A stretch of 64,000 nucleotides of DNA from Trichostrongylus colubriformis (Eukaryota; Nematoda; Chromadorea; Rhabditida; Trichostrongylidae). Below the pieces are notes generated by a model. The model made no database searches, was not told the origin of the DNA, and worked only from the letters and a program-made list of their open reading frames with translations. Below, in pieces: positions 23,396-55,700 of this stretch; the stretch's first letter is position 1; every line of letters begins with the position of its first letter. The stretch lies in contig OZ022261.1 of NCBI GenBank assembly GCA_963978905.1, positions 24,735,686-24,799,685 of the forward strand, written 5' to 3'. The position numbers and the translations under genes were made by a program.

Positions 23396-24717
23396 TGAAA
23401 TAGGGCCTAGCGCTTATAGTGCAATACAGTACAGTGCGCGTACAATAAGGCAGACTTACAACACAATCCAGCACGTACAATGAAATGCAATGCAGTATGA
23501 AAAAAATCCGAATAACCTTTTCCAGCGATGTAATTTAAAACGCAAAAAAGCAAATTACGGAAGCACAATAGAAAACGTGGCAAAAAAGCCTTCTTCAACG
23601 TATGATTTCGTATTGTTCTATTGCTCTTGTCTGCTGTTGCTTTTCATTCACGATAGACGCTGCCTTCTTAATCGCGCTTTCAATGGCCGTTTGAAATCTG
23701 AAATGTACTGTTTCAGAATGAGGGAGCCGTATTAGCCATGGCGAGGCTCGACTACGCACATGCACGGTGAGAATCTCTTTTACACTGATAATTGACCACG
23801 CCTACTTTTACGATTATCGTGGAAATACTTCTGAAGTCCTCTTTCCTTCTAAATTCTCTTTCATATTTTCTGTTGCTTCTCTTTTTCGCCTAAAGAGTCT
23901 AGGGTGTGATCCAAAAGGACTTAAACTCTCAACCAGCTTATGTTCAATAATCTGCACTGGTGCTTTTTCTGTTTTTTCCTGGGAAATGCCGTGCCGTGGA
24001 ACACCGCAGTAGGGGACCGAAGAATATCGGTCGGTTGCAGCGCTTCGCCCGCGAGCGGACGCCAGCGCTTTGCCCGCAAGCGGACGCATCGCGCGCTTTT
24101 GATGACCTCCGCACACCACAGGTTTTCGCGGCTCTAAACTATCCGTTAACGATGCTCACGCCCTAAACAATTCCACCGAAGAAACTAATTTAGTCTCGTG
24201 TTTTCAGCACCATGTATCCACACTTTCTTTCTCGATAATCTCAATAATCGACCACTACTGCGCACTAGCCACAAATACTTTCGCAACACAGTAGTATCTA
24301 CATAAGCCAGCGATTTGAAACCATGCAAAATATTACCGCCGAAGCAGCCCAGGGCTACTTTTCACAAATTCGACTGTGTGAGGTTCTGATTTGCAACAAG
24401 AGGTACAGCTGACCAGATCATCAAAATTTTAACTTAAATGCTGAGCAATTTGTATAATAACACGTTCATCACGAAAACGTAATAGGAAAATTCCTACATC
24501 GGAGTGTTTCGCCCTCGTGATCAATACAATGTACAAGCCCTTCTAGTGATTCAGAATCGGTAGGAAAATGTTTTTGGGGGCCACTGCGCCCGAGCAATAA
24601 CACTGAACGTCAGCCACTATTGTACGTAGTCGATGCTTTGACCATATGCAAATACAAAAGAGGAGGACGGGATAGCATGCTACATAGATCATTCAGAACG
24701 AGGATGATTCAACTGCG

Positions 24718-28592: not shown

Positions 28593-28722
28593 AGCGGAAA
28601 TGTCGGGTATTCCGCTCGGTGTGGGTGGTCCACCACCACCCGGTATGGATACGAAACGTGGGCGACTCGTTTGTATCAAAGTCAGAATGTTGGACGATAG
28701 TGTGGCCGTGTTTCATCTTGGG
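28593..28722 (+). CDS. FARP-like exon 1: start codon and first FERM strand
   Basis: Translation from ATG at 28600 gives MSGIPLGVGGPPPPGMD followed by 'RLVCIKVRMLDDSVAVF', the first strands of the FERM F1 lobe (vertebrate FARP has a very similar 'KVQMLDD' segment). The acceptor 'gatttcag' ends 7 bases before the ATG, the spacing expected of a nematode splice-leader trans-splice site or a short 5' UTR exon; that is why I chose this start. An in-frame ATG at 28483 would add 39 residues without domain similarity. The exon ends phase 0 at donor gtacgt. Confidence 0.85.
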
Positions 28723-31700
28723 GTACGTTTTGCTTTCTCATCATTATTTTCCATTCTCGAAAATTCCACGCCACGCTTCATCGCCAATGTTTTTGATGGC
28801 TGTGCTTATTTGGCAATCCATATTCGCATCAGTTTGTCTTTTTACGTTTTGCTTGTACAGCACGGCTTTCATACGACCACACGGAAACGAGAGTAATGGC
28901 TTTGAGCGATCAATGGGCGGCCGACACAGCAAAAGCTGTTTATACGCCACTGATCAGTCAGTCGCTACCCTGGATATCAATTTACTATAGGAAGCATCTC
29001 TAAGGGTGAACAAATGGCCTACTTGAACAGGCTCAGACGGGTTGTGAAAAGTGTGCTCATAAAAATCCCGTGTACACCGGGGTACTATGTGCACATGACA
29101 TACAAACTTTTATTCAGAAGCCTTTAAGTTCGATCATAGACCTACTATTATAGATCGATTCTAGCGCCTATGTCAAGTCTAAAATGTATAAGCATATCCC
29201 CACCTACATTTCTGCCATGAATTTTCGAGTTCTTTAGAGATTTAGAAGGTCGCTTCCGAACTCTTACATTTAGACTCGGGACCGATTTTTTTCACGTGAT
29301 ATTTTGCGTGTCTTGAATAAATGAACAAAAGAATAAATTTATCCTCAATGAACGTGCAAAGTAAGGGGTGTCAAGATGATATGCAAATATGTACGTTAAG
29401 ATGGATGGAGCCCCGCCCTGCGTCGGGCGTGGCTTGCGCTGGTAGAGGGAGTCAAAGGGCTAGTATGTTATATATTGAATCTCGCAACATTGTTTTCGCT
29501 CCCTTTATTATGCTTTTATCGAACTCTGTGGAAAGGATACTACAGCTTGCTGGATTTTGCCTGTTTTCAAGATGTAGAAACACGAAGTAAATTTCGGTGA
29601 AACCTAAGAACTTTTGCTTCTGCTTTTTTACTTCAATGAAAGATTCACTGCAGCGGGGGAGGTCTGCTAGATAAGTAACTTCTAGGCATTAAATATGTGC
29701 TAATTGCTAATTCGCCTTAAATATAGGTGCTAGATCCCCGGAATCGCAGAGGATGGACAGAGCAGGCTATTAATATTCACAATAAATGTTTGATTTTCAG
29801 TGAATTTTCAGGGTAGCTATTTGTTAGGTGTTGTGAAGTGGGAAAATCTGTTTGTACGTAAAATCATCCTCACTTTACAGCACAAAGCACTTGGTCAAAC
29901 GCTATTGGATGAAGTAGCACGACATTTGAATCTTCTTGAAAATGACTACTTCGGCTTGGAATGCATTGATAATTCAGGATGCCATGTGAGTATGACGTTT
30001 TCACATCGGTCCTTCAATACGTTCAAGCTTCTTTTTTTTTACTCTGCAGTTGATTCAATTTCGTGTAATTCTCTGAGGCTCTACGCCTTCTTTCTCAGTC
30101 TCTCCACTCCTTCTCGATTATTCCTTGTTCAGAATTCGCTAGTCAATTTCTTCCCCTACGAAATGTTGTTTATGTGAACAGTGCTTACGCGCGATTGTGT
30201 GTGTGAACATAAGTCGTCGGACGGCAATTCCATGGGATTCGTTTCCCCACATCGCTTCTGAATATATGAGCAACTACATGAATTACTGGGACCATTCATA
30301 GTTTTAAAAAACAAAAATATAATGCTACCCCAACAGCAGGTACTCATTCATAAAGGTTAGCAAGGGAGAATTTACTCCACCATTACAAAAAGAAAAGCTA
30401 AAGTATTGAGTGGGTGTTGATCAATATCTGCTTGAGAGTGCGCCATGCGTTCTACTTTCACTCAGAATCGTAGGCATTTGAATGCGATATAGCCCATGAA
30501 ACGATTTTTGGAGGTCCTTTATCAACTCTTCTACCTTACAAGTATGGGACTGGTTATCCTCAACCTCTATTGATCCAGGATTTGATCTCCCGACCATGGT
30601 AGCACCACTTGCCTCTCTTCACACCTTCATTATAGCCAGTTATAATCACAGATTGAACCTTTCTTAAGAAAACTACTTGAAGTCAGAGAGTCGTGTCTGA
30701 GAAAGTTTCTCTTGAAGTGGAAATTATCAGGTAGAACAAAACCCTTCAAAAAATGATCTACGCATTAGCGGCGGAAACACTTTTTAACGAACTGCTAAGT
30801 TCACTGCTATAATGTCATCTGTATGGAGAGGCACTGGCAAGACTAGCAAAAATGAAGATTACGATTTAATTGCTTCTGGAACAATCTAGACTTTTTTGGA
30901 CCAGCTTCATTCGAGCCACATTCTCTTGGGAGTGTAGGAGAGGAGGGCAAATCGCCCGAAACCATTACATAGAACAATTTCGGGTTTAAATCACTCTGCA
31001 ATTCTGAATAAGGGTAGTATGCTCCTTTCATCTCTGAAGGATTGAGCGGCCCGAGCGTCGTAGCCTCACAGCCTTGAAGAAGTGCATTACTAGAGGGTGA
31101 AGATTAGCGCCAAGTATGGCATAAGGAATTTGCATATTGGGGGAGTCGTATTTTTCTTCGGAAAGAAAGAGTGGACGGTTTTTTTCAATTTTTTTTCTCG
31201 AGTAATTCTCATCAATCACCACTTTTAAGTGATGTCGTGCCAATGAAAAGGTCACTCTTCCTACGAAAAAAAGGTCGTCATAACTACTTCAAACATTGTA
31301 CTGTCAATAGAGTGATTGTCGATTGAGGACCTTTTAGTTATTTTTGGGTGTGGGGGGGGGGGACCATTTTAATTCGCCACCAGCACCAGTCATGAAAATT
31401 GAGAAGGGAGTTGTATATACGTATTGGTGAACAGTGAATAGAGCCAGAAAGACCGTCTTTTTTAGTGTTGGCTGGATGCGGACAAGCCAATTCTACGACA
31501 AATCAGCTCACATAGTACAGATGCAAAATTCTATTTTATCGTAAAATTCTATACACCAAATCCGATCGATCTTGAGGAAGAATACACGCGGTACGAGTTT
31601 TATAATTTTTGCGTCAAAAATTTCAAGTAGAGTGTTTATTAGGTTAGCCCGAAATTTATTGATTTTCCTCTTGACCTACGTATATTGATTTACCTCATGA

Positions 31701-34700
31701 CTTAAGAGTATTGGTTTTCTGATGACTACTATACTGACGTGCTGATGGCATTTCAATTGTTTTTATAGGTACTTATTAACGCTTCAAATTCGACGTGACT
31801 TGTCAATGGGCGAGTTGCACTGTGCCGAGACAACAGCCGCTTTGTTAGCTGCTTACCTTGTTCAGGTGATGAGCGAAAATTCAATTAATGTCATTACTGT
31901 TAATGGATACATTAATTAAAATTCATTTTCAGTCTGAATGTGGTGATTTCTCCGCTGAAGACTATCCTGATGCCACGTATCTCTCACATTCACGTTTCAT
32001 TCCTCATCAAACTATAGAATTTCAACAAAAAGTCATGGAGAATCATAAAAACTTGGTGTGAGTCTAATAAATCTCCTCAAATTAATTAGCACTCAATAAT
32101 CGTGACAAATATCCCTTCCACACTAAATCTTTTTGAACGGTGCCGCCGAGCCTGCTTTACGCTATAATGTTTCTGTTCATGTGAATTCAAATCTTTTCGG
32201 AACGTTGTCAAAGTGCGAATGGTTGACTTGGCACCTGTCGCAGCTACGTTTGTCCCCATCGGATGTGTCATCATTTGAGAATTGACATCGTGTTTTGCTG
32301 GGGGTCAGTTGTTACAAGCGGCTCCGGACACATTGAGATTACGCCGGCTTGACGGCAACTCTTGAAAGGATTGTGATCCAGTTCAACTTTGGGGATAAGT
32401 GCTTATTGTACATTGTGGCCTTATAACACATGGGTGCAGCAGGACAGTGGCTAAATGCATTGTCATTGGAAAGAGCTGAATAAGCTCTCATTGGTCGAAA
32501 TGCCCTGTGTCTTCAGCTAGCCATCCCTTTACCACCCGACTTTCCGGAAAAAAAATCCATTTGCAACTTCTTACCCAGTCATTCCATAAACCAGCACTGA
32601 GTTGAGTATAAATGGTCAGGCTAAAAATGTTGCTTAAAATGGTCACTATGCTTCAAACCTTTGCCAAAGTACTAAAACAGCGGAATAGAAATTATTCTCG
32701 CCTTCGTTTGAAATTCAGTCACTTTCGGCCTAAAAGAGGGCCCTTTCGTTGGTCTTAAGAGCGTCCTCTGTATGTCGTTTTCGCCTCTAGTGCCATCGAG
32801 AACGAACTCAGCAGATTAAAAAATTTGACCTGTGGTAATCGATGACATGGTAACAATCAATACTGGTTTCGAAATAATACGCTTTTATGTTTGCACTGTT
32901 TAATTTTCTTCTTTGGCCTCTAGTGCCATCAAGACCGAACTCAAGATCAAAAGAATCTGACCTGTGGTAATCGATGATGTGGTAACAATCAATACTGGTT
33001 TCGAAATAATAGGCTTTATGTTTGTACTATTTAATGTTCTTCAACTTTACAAATAAGTCTTTCTAACCTTCGCGGTTTTGATCTTTGGCTTTTCGGTATT
33101 CTGCAATTTCTTTTCTCAAGTTCATCCATATATATCGATTTCCTTCCCTTCATTTATGTGAGGGACCTCTAAGTGACTTCCTTACTTTATCTTTGAAGTC
33201 ATAGATATTGAGGTACTGAACCTCGAATGTAAAGTCACGGCTGGGAATAGGTGTGGCTGGAATGTGTTCGCCGTGGCGCCATTGCAATACGGCTTGCATT
33301 GCCGAACGGAACAAAACGCGTGTGTTTCGTCGGGGAACGGGAAAGTTATATGGCCAGGACTCATTCAACATAATAGCAGTTGTTCAAGCATCGATTTTTG
33401 CGGACTTTACGCTGGACCCGATGATGATGATGTTGCATAATGAAAACATTTCAAACGGATGAATGAGAGAGGCATCCGTTCGTTAAACAATAACGGAAGG
33501 AGAAAATTGGTCCAGTTCGCCCTATTATTGCGCGGTAAGTGTCCCAATAAGAAATCGTCACGGTAATTGCCGCTGCCGAGCATATTTTGCATCAGGATTA
33601 AGCTGACACCATCGTGTTATCGAGAGAATGCAAAAGAGGTGAACCCTCTTTCCTCTGATTAACGGACATTTTGGAGTCCATTTGAAAGTCGCGCGCGAAA
33701 CGCATCGATTTTCCTGCTCTGTCTGCACCCTCTCTGAAAGACACCGCTAGGAGTAGGGAAAAAGTGAGAGCTGTGGAGACATATCCACTGTGAATGAACA
33801 TTTAGTTCAAGGGAGATGATCTGTGGATAAACTCCCACGGGAAAGCACGACTTGGGGTCTTTATCGCAATCTCGCTGCGTCGCCATTCATATCCTAGGCG
33901 AGTTGCTGCGAAGATGGGGCTGTGTGCGTCCCTCTGCCGTCTGCATCTACCCCACCGGCTAATGATGCTGAGGGGCGGAAGGGAAGAAGTGGGGAGTAGG
34001 GTATTGGAGTTTCTATTTATCGGGTTTTTGTTCGTTTTATTCCCTTCCTTACTGTTGCACTACTGAACACCTCGATCTTAATATCCCACAATCTACCGAA
34101 ATTACCACTTACAGTGCCTTCAGTACTCGCTCCCATCCCCTCCCCTTTTGTCTTCACCTTACACAGGCTCAGCAATTACCAACCTTACACACTGGGTAAG
34201 CGTTCCATGGTGCTTCACAGATGTGGTTCTCGAGATTGTGAACTCCTCGCTCATGTTGCTCTCAGCGCTGTTCCTCTGCACCTACGGAATTCCATATGTT
34301 TTCAATAGGTTGTTGTGCGATGGTCCGGAATCCACAGCCAATTTTCTTGAAAATCCAAGCACGAGCCTTTGAAACTTCTCGATATTGCCGCCTATTTGAG
34401 ATCAAAGGCTAACTCAAAAGACCTAAATTTTCATGCGGAAGCGGCAAAAAACAATCACCACAATCAGTTATCGCAAACAGCTCCTTTCCAGTGCCGATTT
34501 CTTATCGAATCTTCCGATTTTATCGGTCTTCTCACCCAGTTCTAATGCCGTTGACTTTGGTGATTTCCCTCAAGGGCGTGTGTCATGAGGGCAGAAAGTT
34601 TGCATGGCTACATGTGGCGCGGTGCGTGCGAGGAAGGGGTGCCGTATGTAGTCGGGTCCTCGAGCGATTGTCGTGCTCTACGTCTAAAATATGCTAAATC

Positions 34701-37700
34701 AATAGTAATGGCACACACTCGTACTCTTAATGCTGCTTTGGAGAAGAGGAATCCAGGGCTTGACTCTCTGTGTATGAGAGGAAGCTCCTGGTACACTTTC
34801 TGAGCAGATGGGTGAGGCCTATGAGGCCTAATTCACTTAGTGTGACAGGATGTAACCAACGATTCCTTACAACGTTCAGTTTTGAAGTCAATGACTCTGA
34901 AGGGAGGATAATTTTTGCACGTGGATCGGTGCCATCTTTTTGTGACACATTTCCACGATAACTGATGGTTACGTTCGAATTCAATCGGTAGACAATCAAT
35001 GCAATTCATCAAAGTACAGCCGCTTTGAATATATTGCGTTGAGTCATTCAAAAGTTGACTCACCCTAAAAATCTATTCAAAGGCTACCGTCTGATGACGA
35101 AAACGTTCCAAAACATGTGTTGACGCGAAAGGTGTGTTCATCTTGAAGAAAAAAAAACTAGTGGCGCTGACAATACACCAAATGGAATTCAACGGGTAAT
35201 GAAATAACGGCACATGATTAAAGGAACATCAACCAACGATTCAAACAGCCCATTGAGGCTTGTTACTTCGGGGTGAAACGGGAAACTTAACGGAAATTTG
35301 TTACAATTATGCTGAGTCATGGGCAAAAGTTTTGGTCTCATTGTAGCATACTTGTAAATCAGCAGTCATCAAAAATCAAAAAATATCAAAATCAATCAAC
35401 TGAAATGCTTTAAGATGGTAAAAATAAAGGGGTCAATGTGGGCTGAGCTTGAGACGCAGCATGACCCAATATTCGTGTATTGCGCAAAATTACACCACAC
35501 ACACCTAACATGTAAAAGAGCTGCCACCAGGGCACACCGGGAGTCGAGAATTCCTCGACAGAGGGGGGGGGGTTCGTACATATTTGACCGGACAGGATGG
35601 GGGTCGCACCTGCAGGGGCCAACGATATGCACTGAAATACTTTCAATAAGGAGATGAGAAACAAAGGTGTTTTACTGCGGCCCGTGTGAGGAAATGTGAA
35701 ATAAACATTTTCTTCTCAGGTATGAATAGCACAGCAATGAAACACATTGCAACTATACAATCTGGCAATAGTTTTTGGTATTGTAGAGGTCAAATAAGGT
35801 ACGGTCGTATGAAGCGGCAATCTTCCTCAACACCTGGCAGAGCCCTGCCTCCCGTCTTCATTCCCAAAGCATGTAATATCAATGAAGGTTTTTTCACATA
35901 CAAAGAAGGATAATGTGAGCTTCAGCTGACGCTATATTGCATCTCTCCCTGAACACACATTGACCTGGATAAACATTTGACGCTTATCAGCCCATTTTGG
36001 GATATGCCGCGATTTCCACTTTCACAGATCCACACTGTGATTTGATCGATATAATGAGTTACTTGTGCCAGCAGCTGTACAGGTCAGGGGTTTCTCGTCC
36101 GGGCCTAGTTCGGTACATGGGATAGTGGAATTACGGACTGCAGTGATCCGGGAAATGATCTCCGGACAGTGTGGAGGCGCCACTCAGAAAAGTATCAACC
36201 CTCTAATTCATTTATGACAGGAGCTGTAAAATAGTTGAAAATGAACAGTGAAAAGTAAAAAAAGAAAGCAAAAGCAAAAGGAAAAGTAAAAAAGTAAAAA
36301 ATAAATACAAAAGATTCATTATTTCATGACACTGTTTACAGAGGAATGAGTCCTGGTGAAAGCGATTTTGCAATGCTAGAAGTGGCACGACGATGTGATT
36401 TTTATGGCATCAAATTACATCCAGCGAAGGTACTACGTTACTCGATGATTCTATCTATCCATTACTTTTTCACTATTTTGTAGTTTTTTTCGTAGTCTTG
36501 GTCAAGTTTTTCACGAACTCTCGGTATCATGTAGAAATCAATTGGTTTTTTTTTCTAGACCTTAAAAGTGTACCAGTATTGCTTGCCCTTAAATACGTTG
36601 TTAATTGATTAACGTTGTTTACCAATATATCGTACACTAAAAATACCTTCTGAATTCTATTGGAATTCAAAGCTTAGTTTTATGTACCCTTTGTTTATTT
36701 TTGCAATTATTTTACTCATTTGTGTATTGTATGCTACTGCTTACCGCGACGCGGTCACAATCGATCCGTTGCCCAGCTGATGGGCGTGGTCGCGATTTCG
36801 CGCCTCGTAAGTACCAGTAGCCCCCACCTTCTTTGAAATGGAGTAGTGAAGGGGCGAGGGAACGATATGTATTGTATCGAGGATTTCTGGGGTACATTAT
36901 TCAACACTCGTTAGCACACAGTAAATTATCATACGCTACTCGGGAAAAGATAACCGCACTTGAGCCGCGTTCATACTTCGCGCCGGCAGGGCGTGGCTGC
37001 GTTCACACGTAGCGAGGCAGAGTGTCACAGGCGGAGGCGAAGAGACACGCAGTCACGTCTTGCTGTCGGCACCCCCAAGTATGAACGCGGTATTACGCCA
37101 GTGCTTTTGGAGGAGACCCTTAATTATCACATATCCGCAACAAATTTGAGCTAGTGCATTTCTAGGTGGCGCCAAAAATGGATGTCGGAATTAACAATAT
37201 CGGATCCTGTGAATCTAATAGATTCACAAAATTTACGAGCAAATTTTGTAAAGAGCAATAAACCGTTGTTTTTAAACGTCGAATAAATAGTGCGAAGAAT
37301 TAGAAATTTGTTATTTCGAATTAGTTAACCACACTGAGTTATACATATATTCCACTGCAGGGTGAGCATGTGCGAAGCTTTTTTTTCATTTCTACTTATT
37401 ATACATTCATTTTTCATTTATGCTCGGCTAGCTGAAGTTGTTGTTCGTTGTTTCTCGTTGAGCCATGTCGTAACGCGAGTTTTCTCAGATCTCACATGTG
37501 TGATGTGACGATTTGTAATAGCAGAATGATGAATGACCCCACACGCTTCCACGGCCATTACACCATCTATTAAAAAGTCTTTGAAATGACAAGCAGTTGA
37601 TGTACGGAAGAAAAGAGAGAAGCTCAGTGAAAAAATAAGTGAAAAAAGGAGAAAAAGTTTAGAGGAAGGCTTGAAAGGATTGCGACGAAACTCTGCCAGA

Positions 37701-40700
37701 AAAAAAGCATTTGCATAGCATTCAGCATTCTAAAAATCTAGTGCTCTTTCAGGACATAGAAGGTACGGAGGCTCGACTAGCTGTGCTTCATTTGGGCATC
37801 AAGGTATATCACCAACTGCAGTGTGTTTCAACGTTCTCATGGGCCAAGATCCGTAAACTCAGTTTCAAGCGTAAGAAGCTTTTGGTGAAACTTCACCCGG
37901 ACAGCTATGTGAGTTTCTCCGATTAATAATAATGATTCCTCAAGGCTTAGTAGCAGTTGCGAACTAGCGGTGTCGCATGCAGTTGGGTCCCAGGGCGATT
38001 ACCTTGTTTTATGCCATATTTTAGGTCCGCGTTATTTATGTCGCACCCACACCACTCGTTGGGAGAGTTTTCTGTCCTAATGACATACCCCAGCTGAGGT
38101 AGTAAAGCCCACCATTAGCCTAGCACAGGTGTAATCGAAATCTATCCATGTTTCACTCCGCTTTTATTTCAAGTCCACTTTGCCCGTTCATCCCTTATGC
38201 TTGCTTTTCTGGAAATAAGTTGTGCTCTGAGCCATACACGTGCCCCGTAAAGAGAGGAGGCGTGGCAAAAACGCTCCTCGTGGACCTCCATCCAATGAAG
38301 ATCCAGCAACTTACTGACCTCCAGCGAATTTGGAATGTGCCTATAATTCACCACATCTACTTCCAATTTTGCATGAAGTACATCTACAAATTGGTATTCT
38401 TTATGAGTCAGGTTACAATATCATTGCTTTCAGCAGTATTACAAAGAAACGATCCAATTCATTTTTGACTCACGAAATGAATGCAAGTCTTTCTGGAAGA
38501 AATGCGTTGAACATCACGCGTTTTTTCGCTGTTCGGCCGCTGACAATACTCGGAAGGATAGCCGACTTTTCAGCAAGGGATCCTCGTTCAGGTACAAGAC
38601 TATCAACATTCTAAAATTTCTATGTACAGTATCGCAAAAAGCCCTTTAAGGCATCTTTCACGACTATCTGATTTTTAATAAAAGATCAAAAAGTTGGTTA
38701 GATCCTCTAGAGTATACAATCTGCGGCGATTTTCAGGTGAAATAGAAACACCCAAGGGCTTTGGGTCAACTGTGGCGTCGAAGATTTCAAACATTACGAC
38801 CCACCCCATAAAAAGGGATCTCCATACGACCCTCCCCCTCTTCAGATCTCGCTATTTCTGTGGTTCCTACTCAGTCAACGTGATTCTTCGAGAAAATCAA
38901 GAGCCCAAGTTAAAAAAAAACTGAGGTCAAGTGCGTGACAAAACAAGAAAAATAAGGATCTGACAAAATGCAACTTGTGTTAAACGAACGCGTCGTCGAC
39001 CATGGGTTATGTGCTTGACTCTGATGACCGAAAAAAGGGTTAAAAGTCATGCAAGTTACGCGGCAGGATTGGAGGGCAGAGGTCCCCTTGTACGTGTTTT
39101 CGGTACCAGCAGACCAACGAAGGGGCCATTGGCGTTGGGCGGCTTGTGTGAGTCACGACATGCACGAGCTCCGGCTAAAGGGTACACTATTTGCGCGTGT
39201 GATTGCAGAAGCTTGACACACAGTCCACAATTCCAAGAGACCGAGGGGTCAGCCTAGCCTTTGACTCTGTCTCTTTTGCGTTGTCCATGCGCTCTTCTTT
39301 TTACATTGTTAAACGCACTTATAAGAAAATTTGTGTCTTGCCTTGTTTTTTATTTGTGGGGTCCCCTTTACACTTTGGGCCTCAGCCTGAGGAATTACGT
39401 TGATCACTGCATATCAACGAGAACGACCCCCCCCCCAATCCTGCTGTCCAGCGGACCAAACACGACCCCCATCCCATGTCGAATATTCCTCGACGGAAGC
39501 TGACCCTGCCCAAGGCATAGAATCGCACGACGCGATGCTGCATCGTTTCTTTTTGTACTTAGCCTGTGCCATTAGAGCAGAAAATTCGCGTGACCGCGTA
39601 GTTTGGCGCGTCGGATGGGTGCGAGCTAGTGCCACAGTATTAATTGGGTCCCAAAGTGATTACGCTCGACATGATGCGTGGGACACCATGATCGCTTCAG
39701 TACCCAACTAACACGGCGCCAATTGCTCGCATCTTTGGCGTCGCACGACTACGCCGCGACGCGAGTTTTCCGCCCCAGTTTCACATAACTTCATGCCATT
39801 CAGGTTACGTCCATTTCTCTTACCCTTGTAGTTTTTATACTTCAGATAATTATTTCATTTTAGCTATCATTATTTTTTTGTTAACAATTATGTTATCTGT
39901 GGGAGTAGCGGTTCAGATGTCTGAGTAACAATGCGACTGAGTTGGCACTTAGCCAATCATTGCTGTAACGATTTATCCACATATCTCCTGTTAACGCCTT
40001 TAGCCCGATACTCTGGCTGCAAGAGATTTTCCGAGATTTTTCAACCATTTGAAACCTTATGTTATGAGTTCCACAGCAGTGGTCCTTTGAAATTTTTCGT
40101 TGTCCCATAATTAGTTCTTCTTTCGAGAAAATGCGATGGCCACACAATGGCCATTCTTCATAATTGAGTTTTTATGACCAGTACCTAATTCTTCTTTGTT
40201 CCATGTTCTCATTCCTTCTTTGCACTGGCAAATGGTACATATAGCGGAAATCACTCAAGTTGAATTGAGGGCAACTCAACTCTCGAAAGTGTAAAATGTA
40301 TCTTTTTAAGGTATCACGGACGTACTCAAAAGCAGCTGATTGACTATGTTCGAGAGCACCACAAGCGTAGAGAGCCCTTTACAAGGTAATTTCGAATCAT
40401 AACCCGATTTTTGACCCTTTTCATTGAGAGATCCGTATAACTGTTGGAAAGCAACTTGGATCGTTATTTTGACATCCGCCAAAGGTCAGTTCAATTGTGT
40501 TCCCCGGATTCTTAATCAGGGTCTCCAAGGTTTCGTGAAACTTTCGTGTCATTCATCTATAAAACGGATATCTGTGAAAATGAACTTGAGAAAGGGGGCT
40601 TCTTCATCTCTAACACTAATGGGAGAGTGCAGTGACGCTGAGCAGCACTACTGTAGCAGCCTCAATTGCGAAGAAATATATCTGTTCAGGGGGATGAGAT

Positions 40701-43700
40701 TTTTGTTCAAGCTCGAGAGTGAGGGGTGGTTGTGTGCCAGTAAAACAGAAAATCAGCAGCGCGACGTCCGGCGTGCCACGTGATGTCTGCGACTCGAAAG
40801 TACCGGGACGGGTAAGGAAAATTAGAGAACTGTGGATACATGTTTTCTGAAAACAAACCTTTCGCATCAGAAGAGGTGACGTGTGGCGAAACACGCATTG
40901 AAAAAGCGCGGCTTGGGTTCTCATAACGATCCCACAGCACGGCGCGTCGTCGTGCACCCCTGCAGCTGGGCGATTTGCCGGCGAAATCAGGACAACGTTT
41001 CTCTCCGCCCGTCTGCAGTCTACCCCGGCCAGTGACGCATAGAACGAGAGAGAAGGGGATTTGAGGGTTCCTGTTTCTCGGGTTTTTCGCCGTTTTGTCG
41101 CGTTCTTTCTCTACTGTTGCATTGCTGGGCACCTCTACTTTCATTTTCCACAGTCTGCCGAATTTACCCCTTCCGTTGTCTTTAAGGGCGCCGAATTCAG
41201 CTCGGTCTTGAAGCGACACCGTGTGTTGCACCTTGTTTCAGACGTAGTCGCCTCAGGATCCAACTACGTAGGGGGTCCCTAGCTCGCTAACATAAGGTCG
41301 CTTGCCGTACCCTGCTTGTTGAAGTCTGTCCTAACGATACACATCCTGGGAGGAAGGACAAGCAGAATCGGCCTCCCATAATTCAAATAACAATTCTGGT
41401 CTAAGACATGGGGTTTCCCCGTATCCAAGTCCTGGGCTCTCTGGATACTTTCTTTCGAGTTTGATTTTATATTAAAGAAATCGTTCACGGGGCAACTCAA
41501 TATTGTAGTTCCTCTCAGAATCAATAAATACATTGCGTGATTAGAAACACGACAAGAACCGAAAAATTTCCTTTGTTCCATGCAGAAATCCGGAACTGGA
41601 AGAGCAGCAACTCGTTAGATTTCCCGCTAATCTTCAACCTTTGAACAGCTGTCGGCCGGAAGAGCGTGATTCAAGGCTTCGCGCCCAGTGTTGATTCGCT
41701 TCACACTCCCGCGTCTTATTACCTATTCGTCGCCGTTGCTCCTCATTCGTTTGCTCCCAGTGCCCTCGTGGCCGCTTCTCCAAAGACAGCCTCACCTCGT
41801 TGGACGTTACCTTGAGTAGCTGTATTATAGCCGGATTCTTTTTTTTTCGCGTAAAACATTATAGGTGGCCCTTTTCAGATAAGCCAGTACAACATAAATA
41901 TATGGATAATAGAAGAACTCAAGTTTTCCTTAACAATTCCTTCATATAACATGGAACCTGCTCGAAAATAACTATACTAGTTAGCTTATGAGTAGTTCAT
42001 TTCAGGCCTCTACGATCGGCCGTCTCCCCACGTTGTGGTCCACCATTTGCCCTATATTCGGTAGTGTCCGATAGGAAGAAGAATGGCGGCGCTCACGTCT
42101 CCTTACCTCATCTACCCAATCAGACGCATACAATCGATAATGCAGGTACATTAGATGCGCGAGGACATCGTCATGAAAACGAGTGTGCTGAGCGACAGAA
42201 GCATCGTGCGCGACAAAAAATTCCCGCCAAAGAATCACATGAGAAAGAGAATGTCTCGCTATCGTTACCGAATGTGCTTAGTGATGATTTACAAGTTGTT
42301 TGTAGAGAATTAGAAGTGGAAAATACCGATCCACCAAAGTCTCTGTCTGGTGATAACTTTAACACCATACGACCTGATTATGATAACATTAGTGAGGACT
42401 CGTATCGATTATCTGATCATGAACGATCGACAAAATCCGATGTTGGTGTGACGTCACGACCAGCTCATAGTACAAATTTTGCAGCTAAACGTGTAAGTAG
42501 TAATGTAGTAGTGAAACGTGTGATCTCACAATCCAAATCCACACCACATTCAACAGACGAAGAAGACTCATCAAGTAATGCACCCACGACGTCGTCTACC
42601 AGTCGACGGCATCTGAAGGAGTACCCGTTCAATTCAACGAACTTCGTTCCAATCGAAATCGACGGCCCCAACGTAGACATAACAGCTCGAAGAACAACGG
42701 GACCAATCTACACGTCCACGGGTGCATTACTACTGAAGCCGAAGGTGATTTCCATTCACGAAAGTGAATATTCCACCGTGAAAGCTGTCCCGGATCCTAC
42801 CGCCCCTGGTTCCTCCGTGATACCACCGCCACCTGTGATTCCTCCGAAAGTCGAGGTACAACCAAGGCTTGAATACGGAGCCAAACGACCACTTCCGGGA
42901 AAAATCATTACTAAGGAGAATATGATAATTACTCCCAATGGTGTCAAAGAACGTGGTCCGAAACCAGCTGTGATGCCGAAGCCTGTGAAAGCCGTGCTTC
43001 CACAACACGTCATTCATCCAACCATTACCCCTGAAGATCACCCAGTTGTGCATCTAATAGACCAACCTCCATCTACGACGTCCTCAAGGGATGAACCGGA
43101 ACCGCCGGAGCCGAAGTCCGAGCCCATCATGAAGGCTCCACCAACTCGTCCAAAGCTGATATCGGTAAAGAGTGAGGACAGCCCGAACGTGGAGAAGTGC
43201 CATCTGTTCAATAGCGAAATCCCATACACGCTCACGCTTCGGAAGGTTGACAGCGCTGAATCGCTGTCGTTCCCTACTTTCAAAGATCGGCACCGAGACT
43301 TCGATACAAGTTCGCTGAGAAGACTCTCCAAGAGTCCGGATCAATTCAAACGGCGAAAGTCGTTGGACTTGGTTCCGCGAAAGCGTTTGCCGTCACCCAG
43401 GAACTTCTCCTCGCAAGATCATTCCATTTCGCCTACCACTCCTGAAGGGAACGTCCTTGATTACGTGATGAAACATCGTTCACAAAGTCATGAACGCACA
43501 GAGAAACGCGGAAGACGTGGTGATGTTCGACGACAAACACAACCGGTGCGATTCGACCTGCCACCGAGCCCGTGTTCACCGACCGTCAGTGGAAGCACTC
43601 CGTTCATCAGTTATCTTAACGATGACGTCGTTGATGACAGCGTGTCTGAATCGCGGAGTCTGCATGATGAAATGGAGAGGCTTGAAAGTGCGCCAAGTGC

Positions 43701-46700
43701 TACCTCCGTGGACCAGAAGGACGACTCAGAAGGCAGCGATTCCTTACCTCCTCCACCTTCAGAGGTAGTGATACCGAAACCGCCTCCGCCACCACCTCCT
43801 CCAAAACCGAAGGCAGCCTCGGATCATGTAAGTGAAATGAAGACGTCAGTGATCATGACCTCTGTTGTGAAAACGCCACCCATGGAATGTTCGTCATCCG
43901 AACTGCCAAAGTCGAACGAGGCGTTACCCAAGTCGAACGAGGCGCAGCCAAAATCGGAGGACGTGGTGAAGTCAGATGAGCTTAATACGCCATTCATTGA
44001 CGAATCGCCGAAAGGCTCCGAAGAAACATTGTCAGTTTCTCGCCGAACTGAAACGGGATTACTCTGGACAGACTTCTAAAGATCTATCTATATTGAAGGT
44101 GATTTGGAGTATATTTGTACAATGTAATGAGTGTGTTCCACAGTTGCCTGAGCTACTATTTGTACATTGTATACTTGCTTCGCTTCAATAGCAGCTAATC
44201 CATAGGATATACGATGGTATGCCGCTGGAGTACCTGTTGTGGAGCTGGGTTGGCTGTGCATGGCGCGTGAAAAGGTTTGCTGTCATTGGTGACTGGCACA
44301 GTAGACCAGTCAGGATGCAATTGCGCGCCGTGCATGGAGAACTCAAAATCTTCAACAAGACTCGTGCCGGATGCGTGTATAGGAGTTAGTCGAGCCTCAC
44401 TTACGTTGCACTCCTGTAGTGTTATAGTACTGTGAAGTATTTGCTGACAAAAGAACGCCAAGGCATTCTTTCGCTTCTTGTGTGTCAAGTGACCTGTCTC
44501 AGCTTACAGTGAAATGTGACTATTCGATCAAATGCTCTAAATACTACCACCATGTACGTAGTGAACTATCTGGGCCTACAGATCATAGCTACCAAGCTGA
44601 GGCATTTCGTTTGAAGCGTGAGAGCTCTCAACAGAGCAGCTATCTTTTACAGCAGAATTTCCTTAAGTTTTGTTAGTGTTTTTTATAATAGCAGTTACTA
44701 GTACTAGTAGAAGTGAGCGTCAGGACTGTACAACATACTTAAGTCACGCGATAAGGAGGCGACCGCGCTTTCTAAAGCACGGTCTATTCACAGCGGGACC
44801 AGAGGTGGGCGTGACGACGTAACTCGCGCGGCACGGGACCTAATTGGACAGTCCTGACGAACACCCATAGTAGTCGTAGTGAAGTGGTCATAGTGGTACT
44901 GGTAGCAGTACAGCAGTATATCAAATCACAATTTCATCATCACCACCACACAAACTAGGTGCATACATCATCGATCACTCGATATGCATAGTACAGCATG
45001 CCTCACATCACTGCACTGCTTGAATCCTTGTGCCTTCCACAGTCAACAAATGTGGTGCTTATTACCCATGTAAACAAGTTCCTTAATAAATATTTTATTT
45101 ATATTTGTTTTATCGGTTGACCACACCATACACCAGAAGCGAACCAATGTCTTGTCAGTCACCGTAGATGAGTGCGACACTAGAACACACATATACACTC
45201 TCACACACACACCCCACATAAAATTCATTTTCTCCCATATGACATTGAAACGGAGTTTTTTTCGTTGGAAATCGATAAAGCCTAATAGTGCATGTCAATG
45301 GGTGAAAGTGAATGGTATGCAATGTGCATTTGATTGTCATACTTGTAATCATCGATTATTGTACTTCACGTGATCAGTCTTATGGTTTTTACTTGTGCGA
45401 TCTCTATGTATGTACATGTACTGCTGTGTTTCACATTAGCCATATTTTGTTTGTCTGGTTGTTGATACATTTTCGATAAAATGTCGATATACAAGCTGCT
45501 ACTGTAGAGCATTTCTGAATTTAACATAAGGTGAAAATAGTTTTGTTCAAATAAATTCGGTATAGAAGATTAGAAGACTGGAAAACCCGCGTGCGCGTTG
45601 TTTTTGAATATTTCCCTGACATTGTTCTGGGCCACTGACGCGAGCATGTGCGCGAAAGCTGTCTAATCTCGTCTGGGTCTGATACTGTGACAACAACTTC
45701 TGAATCATTTAGGCAGAGGATGTGCGTCTGGACTGTCTAACTGGGTCACCTCGCCAGTCGAATTGCGTTGACGTGCGCGCCATGTGTCCTGCGCATCACG
45801 TTATAAATTGGCCACACCTGGGGCCGCGGTTGCCGCCTCCTCGCGTAACCAGACCTAGTTTTACGGCCCGACGTACATTCTCTGAATAGTTATCTTGCAC
45901 ATCTGTGTGACTGCGATGAATGGTTGAAAAATCTTACGTAATTATTCTGGAACACTTTGCTCAACTGGAGTGAACAGCTTTTTCAGGCAACTTTTGCTCT
46001 GATAAACCGCCTTCAAAGGCAAAGTGGCTATAAATAAGCTGAAAATCGAGGATAATGAAACCGCTGATGCCAACCGCCTCACGATCGTACGCGCTCCATG
46101 TGATATTCGTCCCTGCACACGACTATGAGTTCAAAGACACCGAAAAAAAGTGGTGTATTCGGCAGATTGTGGAATATGCAAGTGGGGGTGTCCGCAATGT
46201 AACAGTAAAACGAAATAAGACTGCGAAAAAACTGAGAAATAGGAGCCGGAAAAGCGTCGCCTCTCGCGCCCCTTTGCATCACTAGCTGGAGGTGCACTAC
46301 GGACCGATCAGGGGCTGAATCAGGCGGCGCGAAAGGTGTCTTGCCCTCGCCCGCAACTCGGCAACTCGCCCTGCTGATGAACTGCTGCACGACACTCCGT
46401 GCTCCGGGATCGTGATAGGACCCCAAGCCGCGTTTTTCAGTACGAGTTACGCTGTACATCACTCTTCCAAAGTGGAAGGTTTGTCCTCAGAGAACAAGTA
46501 TTCCCAGTTTTAGCTTTCTTCTTACCCCTCTCGGTACCTTCAAGTCTTCAAAGGCACAGTTCACGATAATATGAGTACCTTGGTTCCATCAGCGAGTAGG
46601 TAGCCCCTTCCACAAGGGCAAAGCATGTGCCGTCATCACGGCGCGAGGGTGGCTGTTTAATGCGTAAAGAACATGTAAATAAGATGACGACCACCGTCTG

Positions 46701-49700
46701 AAGATGGCCCACACCCATCCTTGGTTCAACCAGCTGGTGAGCGGTGGCTTTTACGTGAATGAGAAGAATGATATCGACCGCCGTAAGAAATAATAGGAGA
46801 TACTCCCAATGTAAAAACAACCTTATCGGATATTATCACGTGAAAACTTGTCCAAACATTACTTGCTTATAAGCTGCAGACTCGTCGAATCCGAAGGTCA
46901 GAAACACTTCATTTTTAAGGTTCTCGAAATGTTTCCTCGTTTTTTCTCGACACTTGTGTTCTTTAGCACTCCTAGAGTGTTCATGGAGCGCGACGAGGCA
47001 CGAAAATTATCGTGAACTGTGCCTTTAAGTATATACAATTTGAGGACGAACCACACCTGAATCGTAAAGAATGTCCTTGGAATTGTTCAATATAAAAGTT
47101 GGGATCTAGGATCAGAAATCGTGTAGAATGTCAATCGCCATCATAAACAAAATGAAATTAACTGTAAAGAATAGAAGCCATCGAGTGCCAGCATGATATA
47201 TGGTGGGACAAAAAATTTTCAGCGAATCTGAGTCACAAAGCTACTGAATCGATTTACTTCAAATTCGTCTACCACGACATTTTACATAACGCCTTAGTTC
47301 TTGTAATGTAAAATGATTTACAAATGAATATGGCACTTTTTTCAGCGTAGTCCTAAATCAGAGCTTCCCAGTGAGTTTATGTTTCAGAGAACAATACATT
47401 GCTCAAAAGTACATACAGTGTAGAGTGTCTTTCTTTTTCACACTCTGAAAGTTTTATTGCGGATGAGGTGCGAGACTGCGCCGTGACCATGTTGCGATGT
47501 TCACATTAAAGGCAGTGGTGAGGTAATGTGGGAAGTCACCCTAAAAAGCTACAGTCTGGGAAGACTATAAGTTGCAAAATTCCAGGTAGAAGGAGCGTCT
47601 CTGAGCCTTGGAGGACGCGCCTTTTTCAACGGCTGCTCAAATTTTTATCCCAGCCCAACCCTTGTGAGAATTAAGTGCGGAAGGGGGGACCGTTTTTTTC
47701 AGTTTTTTTCACACGCATACTACAGAACACCTCGACTTTCATGTTCAGGGATCCATTCACATTCGGTCCAAGTTATCCCTATCACTGCCTTTAATGGTCT
47801 GAAATCCAACAGCCTGGATTGCATTTGCGGAGACGGAAGTGGAATATGCATAGAGCGCGGCCTCACCAAACGCGTGTGAGAAGGATCAAAACCCGGACAA
47901 GTACCGCTCAAGACCACCGTGCCTTCCATTCTTTCAAGATCAGTTACGTGGTAAAAAGCGACAGGAAGATAAAAAATCTGACATGTTCACAAATCGATAA
48001 CAGTAAGAAACTGAGAAAATCTGATCCGTGGTCAGGTGTTAGCCAAGGCTTCTGGGTAGCGTTCTATTTTCGTTGGGGGAAAAAGGGGGGAGGGGACAGT
48101 ATTCAGAAATCCGTGTTCATCCTCTGCAGTTTGCAACTCGTACAGAAATATTGATGGAAGGTGGTCACGGACGCGTCAAATTACGTGATAAGGAGGCGCG
48201 AATTTCTTTGTGGCGAAACGTGACAGTGGGCGGAGCGTTCTGGGGTGGAGCCCAAGTGCCAGGCTACAACATATATAGTGCTGCGCCTTCAACTTCTACT
48301 GGAAGTATGCGTTCATATGTAATTCAAATAATTCCAAGGAAATGCGCTATATGGAGAAAAGGCTTACGCTTTCGAGAGAGTATGCTATGCTTCTTGTATG
48401 TAGGTCAGTTGTGGTTGTGGTAACGGAAATGGTGTGGTGATTTGCATGTGATGCCATAGACCGATGAGCAATATCGTTTACTTTCTGAAGATCTCTGTGT
48501 TCTAAGTTCACTGCTATTTGATGCATTTCGAGAACACCGTAGTGTACTTTCAGATCTCGGTCGGTCTTCATTCAGCAAGAAAACGATTTACGGTGTGAAC
48601 TCAACATTCTCCTCGGACGGCGCCATCAAGTCGGATATTTACCAGTTGCCAAGAAAGTAAGTATTGCGAAGTCAGAAAACTGAAACCGCAAACTCAGTTT
48701 TCTAGCAGATGACCTGCCATTTTTAATCGAAATTTTCGAAAACCTTGAATGAATTAGTTATGCAATTATGCATCCGTAGACTCATGGCGTGTCGTAGAAG
48801 ATCTATTCCAACTAAGTCAGGTCACACAAGGCGGCGGTCGTGCCCCCAACACGCGGCCTTCTCAACGGAACAACCGAGGCGTTTGGCGCGCCGGTGACGC
48901 TTTCAAGGGACGGTGTTCTGGTGGTTCGACTCCGACGTGCATCCGGCACTCGCACATCCCGATACCTGATTTTTGCGAAAGCAAGCTTCTGCTCAAGTCG
49001 CATTTATACTCGTAGGCGAAGCGCTGCGATCGCAATTGTCGCTGGCTTTGCGTTTAGGCCACCTCAGACTTCGCGATTTTGCGTTTTTGTAATTCCGTGC
49101 CATTGCACTTTCGCAGACGATACCACGATCTTGAGATTGTGCAATGCCGCAACTTCGCATGAGGAGCCACGATATCGCAAAATCGCAGAATGGCAAAATC
49201 GCAAAAACGCAAAATCGCGAAGTCTGACGGCGGTCTCATCGGTGCACTGGTACATTTCCATGATCAATACAGTCACCGAAGTCGGCTGTCGCACGGCCAT
49301 TACTACATGTGTTGATCGTAGCGCCCTTACGTCGCAGCAATCGCGATGGCGACGACTGCTATGATCGGGTCGCAAAGTATGAATGCGCATGAAGTGTTAT
49401 GCTCCTCCGCATTTCAGCCATTTTCTTAGCAAGTACATATCCATTCCGGTGTTTTATTAGGTAAATATTGTTCCCAAAGATGAACATGAAATCGCGATTT
49501 TCATTTGAAGGGCTGAAACGAGTGCAAGCCTCAACTCAAGCACAGCTCAACGATTTTTCGACCGTCACGATTCGAGTGATAGTGGCAGCGAATCATTAGG
49601 GGGTACTGTGTACTCAAAAGGTAATTCCATTGCTGAGTTCAAATAATTTAGCATTCCAAAATAAATTTGAAGCTGTTTAGATACTTCCATGACTTCGCCG

Positions 49701-52700
49701 AAAATGACTATCTCCGGTTCAATCGCCGACAGTAAGCTCGACTATGAAACGTGGCCAGATTTATCCGTGATCTATCCCGATATGGAGGACACGGTCAATG
49801 GCAATAAGGAGGTTTAAACCTTTCTTCACTGAAAGTTTCCCAAGCATTACTATCATGAGACACGAGACGATGCGTGCGGACTCGGGGCGCCATATTCAGT
49901 CAGGATCCGAAGTGCCACCGTATTTTAGGCGCGGTACACGATAATCACTTAGGGTCCCGACTGGGAATGGCACCCCTAACTAGCATACATCGCCTGGCGA
50001 AATCCTGACGTATGTGTGATACGACTGGGAAGGCATTCTGATGTCGAATCCTCTCATAATGGGGGATCTGTGCAAAGACTTTTTATTTCTTTGAAACTAG
50101 TCCTTACAGAATGTGCTTTCCGACATGTGTTATCAAATACGTGAAGATCTCCTTGATCACGAGCGAAGTGCTGCCAGGGATTTCCGTTTAGTTTGCGAGG
50201 TTAGCTGCTAGTTACACACAATTTAACTATTGGATCAGCCAAATATGTACGTGATGCACCTAGTACTGTAAGAATCGAATAATCGCCCGAATAAAAAAAT
50301 TGGCGCTTTTTACGATATAGGCTAATCCACGCGCCCTTTGCCGGCCGTAATTGCGTATTTCGCCGTCTGGGGTCTCCCGGATTTGCCTGAGCCTTTTCAG
50401 GGAAGGAGCTTAGACAGCGTCGCGTACTCTGGCCTGTCTGGTGTCTGACCTCGCGGCGGGAAGCGTGTTGTCGAAAGAAGCCAGCTGTCTTCAAGCCGGT
50501 ACGCAATCACGGCCGGCAAAGGGTGCGTGGAATAGCCTATATCTAGCAGATGACCTGCCATTTTTTAATCGAAATTTTCGAAATTCTTGCATGAATTAGT
50601 TATGCAATTATGCATCCGTAGACTCATGGCGTGTCGTAGAAGAGCCCGTAGCAATAATGCATCAAAAGCCAACATTGAATCCCTCATAAGCGATTCAATG
50701 TTGGCTTTTGATGCATTATTGCTATGGTTTTTGGTTTGATTTTTTTTTGGTTTTTGGTTCTCTTCAGTTTGATAGCAAACCGCTTTTTACTTCCTGAAAG
50801 GAGAGAAAATTTCTTCGGAATCTGATAAGCTGGCGATAAAATTTTTATTCTGTCCTATTCTAACCTCATAGGGTGCGTAGGAATTTTGCTGTGAACGCAA
50901 CCACGCCCTGTTGCCGACACTACCGCTAAGTATGAAGACGGCTCATGCTTCCGAGCAAACGATAAAGCCTCAGCAACACTCCTGCTGTTTCCTCTTTTAT
51001 CGTCGCACACTTGGCGTTGACCAGGAAGGGGCGTGCGCGGCCCAGACATGTGATGTCCCCAAGTTGAATGCTGCCTTGTGAGCGATCGATCATTGTAGGC
51101 TCAATCCCGCCATGGCGTCATGAGAGGCGGGGATGGGCGGAAGACATTCAGCGACTTAATCCAGTTTGAACTTTCCAAAAGCTTCGAAGACCGCCTTGTA
51201 GAGTTTGCACAAGTGGGACTGGGGTCAGACAGCGTCACAAGAGTGGCCAAAATTGTGCGGGAACGCGTTTTTGCCGCTTCTCGCTATGTATCAATTAATT
51301 ATTGGTTTTAATCAGAGCTATGCATATTTTTGGAATCAGCTCATCGAGCTGTACAATATGGTGCTACATGTTTTTCGCTTCTTCAATTCGGTAGTAAGCC
51401 CTTTTTCACATTTCGAAAAGATTGAGGGGAAATTCTTCGGAATCTGATAAGCTGACGATCACAGATGTATAAGAATTTCGGAGTCTCCGCCGTCGGGGAT
51501 GAGCCCCTCTTTCCTGGTGTGGCTTTGAATAGCGTCTCCATGAATCTCCGTGTAACCCCCTTTGATGCTATGTAGGACCCTGCAGGTCCGGCCCACGATC
51601 ATAGTGGCAGACCTCAGGCCGCCTGACCTAACGATCACGATCGATGGCGCCTCGAAGTTCCATTGGCGTGCACGTGAATCGCACGCGGCCGATAAAGGCT
51701 TGAGATGTCGATCCGCAGCAAAGAAAGGGCCGAAAAACGTGATAAATAACAAATATCACCACGAAGAGTTTTATATATCACTCGGTAGTATTTCTCATGG
51801 TCAACTGGTGCAAATTTCCTTCAAGAGTCGGCGTCTAAAAATGGATTAAATTATAGTTTTTTGGCAATGTATGCACGGAGGTGCTATTTGGGGTAGTACT
51901 AGGAAAAAGGGGTTCATTTGAAATGATAGCGACTTCGGAATTTCTGCACATATGTGAGCTTAGACTGAGAAAGATCTTCATCGCCATCTTATCAGATTCA
52001 GGAGCAATTTTCCCTTGAACTTTTCAGAAGGTGGGAAAAATGGCTCACCACCAACCTGAAGAGAAACAAAAACGTGTATTGAGCACGACGAGCTGATTCC
52101 AAAAATATATACAGCTTTGGTAAAAAATCAGTAATTAAGTCGATTTATAGCGAAAAAACCAATAGAAATGACATTGCGAGTTTGAGCCAACAGTCAATCG
52201 ATCGCTCACCCGGCTGCATTCACACTTGGTGAGATCACCCGGCTGGGCCGCCCATACCCGTCTGGGTCACCGCTGCGTGCACAAAGTACAGGAAGCTGCC
52301 TGTGTTGACAGGAGCTCCCAAGCAAACGGGCTCCTCACACGATTCCCCCTTAGGACGTCCTCTTTCAACAATGTGGTATGGATTTCATTTGTGTTTTTAA
52401 GAATTTGAGTGCCACACCTTCTTCGGACCCCATCCCGACGATTAACAAACACGAACGATACAAATATCCCCCCCTCCATTAAGCAGCCCTCTGCACACTA
52501 GAATGGTCCGTCAGCATCATGGAACGCTTCGCAGGTGGCGCTATGATGATTGTTCGTCTTTCTGGTATCTTTTCCTTCTACTGGCCTGACATAAAATCGG
52601 TTCCAACGGTTTGCTTTGCGAATGAGCTTCATTTATTGAGTTTAGCCTTCGAGGTGGTCTAAGGAACGGGATTCCGAAAGGTGATTTTAAGACTTCACCG

Positions 52701-55700
52701 CTTGCACGAGAGTCAAGGCGCCTTCATACTCTGCGGCATGCCCGCCTGACTACCAGCGGCAGGGCGGCTACGTCCACAGGCAGCGAGGCAGGGATGTACG
52801 GCGGAGAAGTGAGAAGACGAAGCCACGCCCTGCCGCAGGCTCCGCAGACTAGGAAGGCGGCACTATGCAACATTCCGAAGCTGCTATAGACAAGGGGTAG
52901 GGTGGAAGCAGGGACACGAGTGGTTTCTAGGCTTATCCGCACCTCTGCGTCGCAGCATTTCTCCGTATCGATCGCCAGTCTTTATTGGCTTACTTTGACT
53001 GTACTGAGAGGTGAATTCAGACGCATTGGCCAGTGGCCTAAAGTGCCCCTCTCCAGATTCACATAGCATCCAACGGATTTACGACAGCTGTCGTTCTTAT
53101 TGTGAGCGCACTATTGATCAGGTGCAACAGGCATGGAGTGATGTGCCCAATGCAATGCGCTCTGCTCGTCTGTCATTTAGCCACGCTCACTTTTGATTGG
53201 TTGGAGTGACCTACAAGGAAAATGGCCGAGACAGGCTCAACGAGTACCGCTTGTGCTCTAAACTGCGGGTCGTATGAAGTAGATAGTGTTGCGTGTACTT
53301 GTGTCAGATGACCCGAAGCAACATCATGTGCTACTTCCTGAATCTGAGCCCATCAGTAGAGAAAGCAGTGCTGGATTGGAGATCACAGCGCTGACGACTG
53401 CACAGTAGATGGCGCCGAAAAAAACGGTTTTCTCGTTTGGCGGGGGATCGGCAAAAAATCTACTAGGAAGCCGATTTTCTCTTTTCTGGATTTTTGATGG
53501 TTCATCGAGATGTGGTTGAATTAACTGTGAATTTGCCTACTAGGTATGTCCTTTTCAGAGCTCAAACATCAGCAAGCAGAAATATCTGTACTCCCTTGCT
53601 TACTGACTCTTTATTGGGAAGCATCTTTTTTAAGCTGTCTACGGGATTCTTCTGACAATTAAGCCGATAGCAACGACTACAGATTTGTTCCATGATAAGT
53701 ACTGAATAAAATTAAACAAAAATTCATGGCAAGACTGCTGTCTTCAACAGTGAATAAGCTTGTCAAAGTTCATTTATATCTCCATAATTTTTCGTATATT
53801 TGTTTCAACTACTTCTTGATAAAGCCTTTCAATTACCAATCAGGCTGCCAGAACTCTTTACCCTATTCCATGAAGCGACACTTGTCGCTGGAGACGAAGA
53901 CCCTGCAGTGACTAGGGATGGACCGACTTTTCTAAGTTGGGGCTCCTATCAACGCAGCCAGCTTCAGTCGCTTTCATACTTCGCGGAGGTAGCAGCATGC
54001 CTGTCGGCGGCAGAGCGTGCATGCGTCTACGGACTGCAAGAAAGAGTGATACGGGCGCAGGCGGAGAGACGACGCAGCCACGGTGTGCCGCCGGCACCGC
54101 AAAGTATAAAGGCGACCTTTCCTCCTTTTCCCTGTTGTTTCCACTTTCGTTGTCGCGCACTCAGCTGTGAGCGGAAAGGGGTGTGCGTGGCGCAGCCGGG
54201 AGACGTCACCAAGTATGAATACAGCCACGTGAGCGATCGATTTATTGCAATGGCGTTATAGAAAGCGGGGTGAACGGAGCACAATCATGCACTCAGCAAG
54301 ATGGAGCGCGGAATCCAGTATGGAGCCTTCAAAAATTTCAAAATACCGCCTTGCAGGGCTCGATTAAGTGGGACTTTAGATATAAATAAATTCAATAGAA
54401 CCAACATAAAATCGGCTTATAAGGTGAGAGTAAACAGTGCGCCACGTATCGCGGAGCTTACCGGGTGTATCAGAAAATTTGAAGACCAGTGAATACTATC
54501 CCAACAGCTCGTCAATGTAGACTTCTCGGTCGTTAGCTCTGTGGAATAAAAAGAGTTTCAGATTTCTTCTTGAATAAATTCAAAAGTAAGCATACTTATA
54601 ACATAAATGAGAGAAATACAAAATTGCACTACTGGCGCGATTTTTCGTGCTTTCGCGACACTGTGCGTATTACCAGTTTTGGCTGTGCTACTTCAAAGTC
54701 AGAAATATTCACTCCGTGATCCTGGTATGCCGACCTATTCAGAACTTGCCGCGCTTGATTGAGCCGTTTTTGGAGAGCTCCGGAGTGGTCATGGAGTTGT
54801 CGAAGAAACTGAGAGAACTAAAGGAGTCTCAAGCTTCATTCCTAGAGCAGATTAGTAGTGCTGAGTAAGTTTACACAATTTTTTTTGCATGTGAAATGTG
54901 TATACGGTTATTCACCTGCAACTCCAGCTAAGGGTACTGCAAGGGGCAAGGGAGGAAACCGGATCCGCAAACACTGTTCCTGTAAATGAAAAGTCTGAGC
55001 ATCGCGAGTTTATGTTTAGCGAAAGTTACGATGAAATGCGCTTCTGAAGCGCTATTGGAATTCTGGTGCGCTTCATCTCAAGCTACAGTGCATCAGCGGC
55101 CGAGTTGCCTACTGGCGGCGGGCTTAGGAGATTCTCGGGCTGTGCCATTGTCATCTGGCGTCGGGTGGAGCGATTTTGATTTCATCAGTGATGATGTGAA
55201 ACAGGTAAAACAACAAACCGCGAACGAGAGAAGCAATCCGAGTAAGGGAAGGTCATTCCGCTTTCTGATTCTCGTCGCGTACGTGTTTTCTCACCTACCC
55301 ATCCAAACCAAGCCGTGACCGTTGCCCAACCCTTTCGCGGGGGTGTGTCAGATATGACGGAAAATCGCGTGGCCACCCGCGGCGGGTACGAGTGCCAGTG
55401 GCAGGGCATGGCAGCCTTCAAGCGAGACAGTGTGGCACGTGTGGAAGCGTAGAGGTGACGCAGCTACTCTCTGCCGGGCTCCCAAGCGCAATCGATTTGC
55501 AAGTCGTACTGGTGACGCCGCGAGTGGAATGCCGCGGAGCGATTCTCCATCATATCTGCACACACCCGAAGTTCGCAGCGTGCCTTTCAATAGGACTTGT
55601 GCCGGTCTCCATAGACCTTGTAACGTACTTTCCTAGTGAACATGGTTTTCTAGTTTCCCTACTTGCGAATACCCAGATCACTTGTCGTGAAGCTTTCGAG

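Follow-up and report, generated by a model that had tools for sequence, protein, structure and literature searches.

The 64,000-nucleotide stretch of Trichostrongylus colubriformis DNA analyzed here (the window; contig OZ022261.1, positions 24,735,686 to 24,799,685) carries the frm-3 (FARP1/2) orthologue of this trichostrongylid nematode as one gene-like exon chain on the + strand, running from position 23738 to beyond 64000 (Table 1). Joined in phase from the ATG at 28600, the nine exons between 28600 and 40385 and the tail exon at 42006–44079 encode exactly 1041 residues, in which Pfam recognizes FERM_N, FERM_M and FERM_C followed by FA (PF09379, PF00373, PF09380 and PF08736), all above their cut-offs and in the order of the FARP proteins. 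This product is 99% identical to the T. colubriformis record P0001 and 91% identical to P0002 of H. contortus, and the 12-residue N-terminal extension supplied by the 23738 exon is also present in P0002 and in a second H. contortus record, P0021. A preliminary description of this DNA had given the large tail exon its own stop and a FERM-FA-disordered product of about this length, and the exon is indeed open from its acceptor at 42006 to the TAA at 44077–44079, with a fraction of disorder-promoting residues (a crude count) of 0.69 in the tail versus 0.53 in FERM-FA. A poly(A) site had been expected near 45090–45560, and AATAAA signals do occur at 45085 and 45550, both between the stop and the next coding exon at 48554.

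A set of 128 proteins was fetched, and the alignment comprises the window and 24 of them. Counts over 22 rows refer to the window and 21 relatives, after removal of P0021 and P0013, which are without the stretch compared, and of P0001, a near copy of the window. Across these rows the C-terminus of the FERM-only form (isoform A) reads TDF in 17, SDF in one and PDY in one, the remaining three being fusions with other ends. The conserved WTDF end (44050–44079) resembles a PDZ-binding C-terminus. Record P0014, which encodes 1035 residues in 3563 bases, is by its short length probably a spliced isoform A transcript from another nematode.

Fourteen further exons lie downstream on the same strand, from 48554 to 63591, and correspond to the RhoGEF-PH-PH part of the records P0001 and P0021. 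FERM-only and FERM-RhoGEF reading frames occur at one locus, as in frm-3. The last exon of this half (WTEALRKAAIS...) had no tblastn match within the window and probably lies beyond 64000. The DH-PH-PH region of a relative, P0121, matches FARP1/2 by both sequence and fold, its structure model aligning to 4h6y over 402 residues and to 4gzu over 405. Two PH domains follow the DH domain, as in FARP, with Pfam marking two PH stretches each in P0021 and P0122 and one each in P0121 and P0123. Pfam RhoGEF scores of the strongylid proteins tested (four of four) ranged from 20.4 to 26.0, all below the cut-off of 27.6. Of the presumed catalytic DH residues, E112 does not vary across a 12-row alignment and K232 hardly does, and the idea of an inactive DH domain was not adopted. 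Although the FARP fold is kept in one model, the sub-threshold scores leave it possible that the exchange activity of strongylid DH domains (here, 50110–56589) is weak.

Table 1. Coordinates of the frm-3 orthologue and of candidate splice features, counted from the first nucleotide of the window
Feature	Position	Strand	Remark
5' exon	23738..23766	+	codes MARLDYAHA + CG, then GTGAGA donor; joins 28593 in phase
FERM start exon	28593..28722	+	internal ATG at 28600
FERM exon	29881..29985	+	in spliced product 99% identical to P0001
FERM exon	31466..31590	+	
FERM exon	31769..31865	+	
FERM exon	31933..32057	+	
FERM exon	36342..36429	+	
FERM exon	37753..37908	+	
FERM_C/FA exon	38434..38591	+	
FA exon	40311..40385	+	
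Isoform A tail exon (FERM-FA-disordered tail)	42006..44079	+	stop 44077-44079; C-terminus LLWTDF
Short form of tail exon, proposed for isoform B	42006..42145	+	donor CAG/GTACAT at 42146; junction as in H. contortus P0021
GTAAGT, first-proposed switch donor	43828..43833	+	judged a chance match
AATAAA, candidate poly(A) signal of isoform A	45085..45090	+	second copy at 45550
Implied 25-bp bridge exon	47346..47370	+	judged not real
First RhoGEF-half exon (linker, DLGRSSFSKKTIYGVNSTFSS)	48554..48656	+	tblastn with P0021 and P0001
Two linker exons	49511-49620, 49681-49811	+	
Exon, DH domain start	50110..50199	+	
DH exons	54743-54864, 55834-55980, 56248-56332, 56389-56589	+	
First PH domain exons	58213-58365, 58461-58574, 59266-59362	+	
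Linker and second PH exons	60784-60887, 61433-61549, 63440-63591	+	

The point at which the two halves would be joined is best indicated by H. contortus. P0021 and the FERM-only P0002 share one locus tag (V3C99_017253); P0021 reads ...NQTHTIDNA-DLGRSSFSKKTIYGVNST... before continuing into DH-PH-PH. Placed on the window, its junction corresponds to an exon at 42006–42145 with the donor CAG/GTACAT at 42146, spliced to the acceptor at 48554; the phases match and the predicted fusion is open for 972 residues with 94.4% identity to P0021. In isoform A the same nucleotides are read through as GTLDAR, a hexamer present in every one of the 22 rows, although with an additional Leu in one, and one of only two unchanged hexamers in the tail. 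At the amino-acid level, the residues are kept at 42146 and not at 43828 or 44031. The C. japonica model P0013 omits sequence starting at the same point as donor 42146. GTLDAR spans Pristionchus, Mesorhabditis and Caenorhabditis to the Strongylida within an otherwise fast-changing disordered tail. GTLDA also occurs in four further, unaligned proteins (P0027, P0049, P0055 and P0058); it is absent from P0013, P0021 and P0044, which belong to the same nematode group, and from 32 other proteins among P0001–P0061, including those of filarial nematodes, Steinernema and Trichinella. Judging from the record names, we read this as a peptide probably limited to one nematode clade. It is tempting to see GTLDAR as doubly used, coding in isoform A and serving as the donor of isoform B, and so as an ancient, selected switch of fixed position between FERM-only and FERM-RhoGEF proteins; this extension is tentative, at slightly under an even chance.

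It should be noted that several observations weigh against a switch at 42146. Its donor scores 5.5 versus 9.4 at 43828, on crude matrices built from the splice consensus. The relatives were compared there by amino acids, and GTLDAR could be kept for a function of the peptide instead of for splicing. Of six fused models examined in the group, four join late, one joins earlier and only P0021 joins at 42146. The earlier join belongs to the Mesorhabditis spiculigera fusion P0044, which exits the tail after ~19 residues, ahead of GTLDAR, and the row of P0023 carries the extra Leu; these two cases slightly lowered our confidence in the reading. The T. colubriformis fusion P0001 itself keeps nearly the whole tail, joining 44030 to 48576, and the Caenorhabditis models P0012, P0016 and P0017 join near the tail end. 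Finally, the records for N. brasiliensis, A. ceylanicum and N. americanus divide the locus between two adjacent tags.

The late joins would be accounted for by a long fusion in which the donor GTCAGT, late in the tail exon at 44031, places almost the entire tail ahead of the RhoGEF half. P0001 (1619 residues) is such a fusion, and the models of C. auriculariae, C. bovis and C. angaria join similarly late. The codons at 44031 spell Leu-Ser in the window, whereas the 24 other rows of the alignment have Leu-Pro in 12, Leu-Ser in none, other pairs in 10 and gaps in two; Leu-Pro is unable to carry GTCAGT, and the 10 other pairs include P0001's own Phe-Lys, which lies past its junction. Automatic models may simply pick the last in-frame donor ahead of a stop, and we consider the long fusion unlikely. 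The adjacent locus tags would instead be explained by two neighboring genes, FERM-FA ending at 44079 and DH-PH-PH starting from about 48.5 kilobases, perhaps with its own promoter or by trans-splicing. The models of the two hookworms begin with similar residues. For C. elegans frm-3, three isoforms are described, of which two carry a FERM domain (PMC9632837); this would allow for a product lacking it, which may exist in addition to the other forms. The starts of the split models differ, however, except in the two hookworms and two Toxocara records, and the halves are linked in H. contortus P0021 and in C. elegans FRM-3B. We consider two separate genes improbable.

The preliminary description had placed the switch at 43828, where CAT/GTAAGT is present on a codon boundary as claimed, and had proposed a phase-0 joining to the DH-PH-PH half, with a junction 43827/47346. 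Direct splicing of 43827 to the first RhoGEF exon does not keep the RhoGEF frame: at the acceptor 48554 a frameshift runs into a stop, and at the inner acceptor 48576 the frame is open but is not that of the RhoGEF. Since neither acceptor serves, the junction needs the 25-base-pair bridge exon at 47346–47370, which restores the frame and is flanked by TTTTTCAG and GTGAGT, with good scores of 9.8 and 7.7; the donor, too, outscores 19 of the 23 other donors of the gene. Against this, both elements are expected by chance. Synonymous-codon shuffles of the tail exon (n = 2000) held at least one GTAAGT in 44.15% and GTRAGT in 79.3%, and by the same crude matrices the intron holds four bridge candidates versus a mean of 2.5 in 100 first-order-model sequences, 87 of which had at least one. 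Among the 22 rows, the window and H. bacteriophora alone have Val-Ser at the donor (the excluded duplicate P0001 has it as well); Val-Ala stands in 16, Val-Val in two, Val-His in one and Ala-Thr in one, and Val-Ala codons are unable to spell GTAAGT. The bridge peptide (SPKSEL or RSPKS) was found in one of the 128 proteins, from a snail, and in no nematode protein among them. P0001, at 99% identity, uses neither donor nor bridge, and the fused form of H. contortus implies a donor ~1.7 kb upstream. A FERM-tail-RhoGEF protein made in this way is thus very improbable, and the switch point probably differs from the one first proposed; the general idea of one locus with both outputs stands, given the published C. 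elegans frm-3 and the H. contortus pair. The tail exon carries a second GTAAGT at 42493, which was rejected as a donor, a stop resulting on joining to 48554.

The reading favored here, to which we assign a probability of roughly 0.7, is that of a frm-3/FARP gene with two endings from one pre-mRNA, the longer product arising via 42146 to 48554. Both reading frames, the splice-site phases and the domain content are observed, and both protein forms occur in the H. contortus records; T. colubriformis would then use donor 42146 as well. Reading through the tail exon, with cleavage and polyadenylation close to 45085 or 45550, would yield isoform A, composed of FERM-FA and a disordered tail of ~690 residues ending in WTDF. 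Splicing of 42146 to 48554 would yield isoform B, composed of FERM-FA, 47 residues of the tail exon and then DH-PH-PH, as in mammalian FARP. The choice between them would be set by competition between splicing and polyadenylation, and the gene can probably give rise to two proteins, a short membrane scaffold and a longer form that includes a signaling half.

Other features of the window were also noted. Ten of its 25 open frames gave no match in a Pfam scan at an E-value of 0.1. An inverted repeat lies inside the first intron at 26413–26647 (75-nucleotide arms, 96% complementary, 85-nucleotide spacer), and an 82-nucleotide direct repeat, 96% identical, occurs at 48720–48801 and 50562–50643, intronic in both places and perhaps a dispersed element.

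In vertebrates, FRMD7 is a separate gene. In domain layout, FRMD7 has FERM-FA without DH-PH, as does isoform A, and no vertebrate FRMD7 appeared among the best 120 of 1021 matches. Mammalian FARP1 and FARP2 share the FERM-FA-DH-PH-PH layout and give the best PDB match to P0121, both by sequence and by fold; unlike in these proteins, the strongylid DH falls below the Pfam cut-off, and the nematode locus has a FERM-only product as well. Among insect FARP records, three labeled as isoforms (P0068, P0078 and P0101) list no DH-PH domain, and FERM-only outputs of FARP loci may therefore be wider than the nematodes.

The finding is ordinary in kind, and the general reading is right but already known, two outputs from one frm-3 locus having been published for C. 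elegans. The frm-3 sequence of that species was not among the matches named in the homologue listing. The published account describes FERM-only and FERM-RhoGEF proteins from one locus, FRM-3A and FRM-3B, which have FERM-FA in common, both reach synapses and each rescue the synaptic GABA-A receptor content of frm-3 mutants; FERM-FA alone is enough for this rescue and the RhoGEF-PH-PH half alone is not (PMC7260190). In a second report, LIN-2/CASK binds the FERM domain in a yeast two-hybrid assay and the numbering of FRM-3B runs 12 residues ahead of FRM-3A (V36/V48) (PMC9632837). C. elegans, a different species from that of the window, shares with it both outputs and the 12-residue N-terminal difference, which the 23738 exon would supply. 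By analogy, the T. colubriformis protein would have the same synaptic scaffold role. Should the switch point at 42146 be true, it shows where to cut in order to remove one FRM-3 form while sparing the other, in C. elegans as in parasitic nematodes, and the adjacent-gene splits and long fusions in several nematode records may be errors of the gene models.
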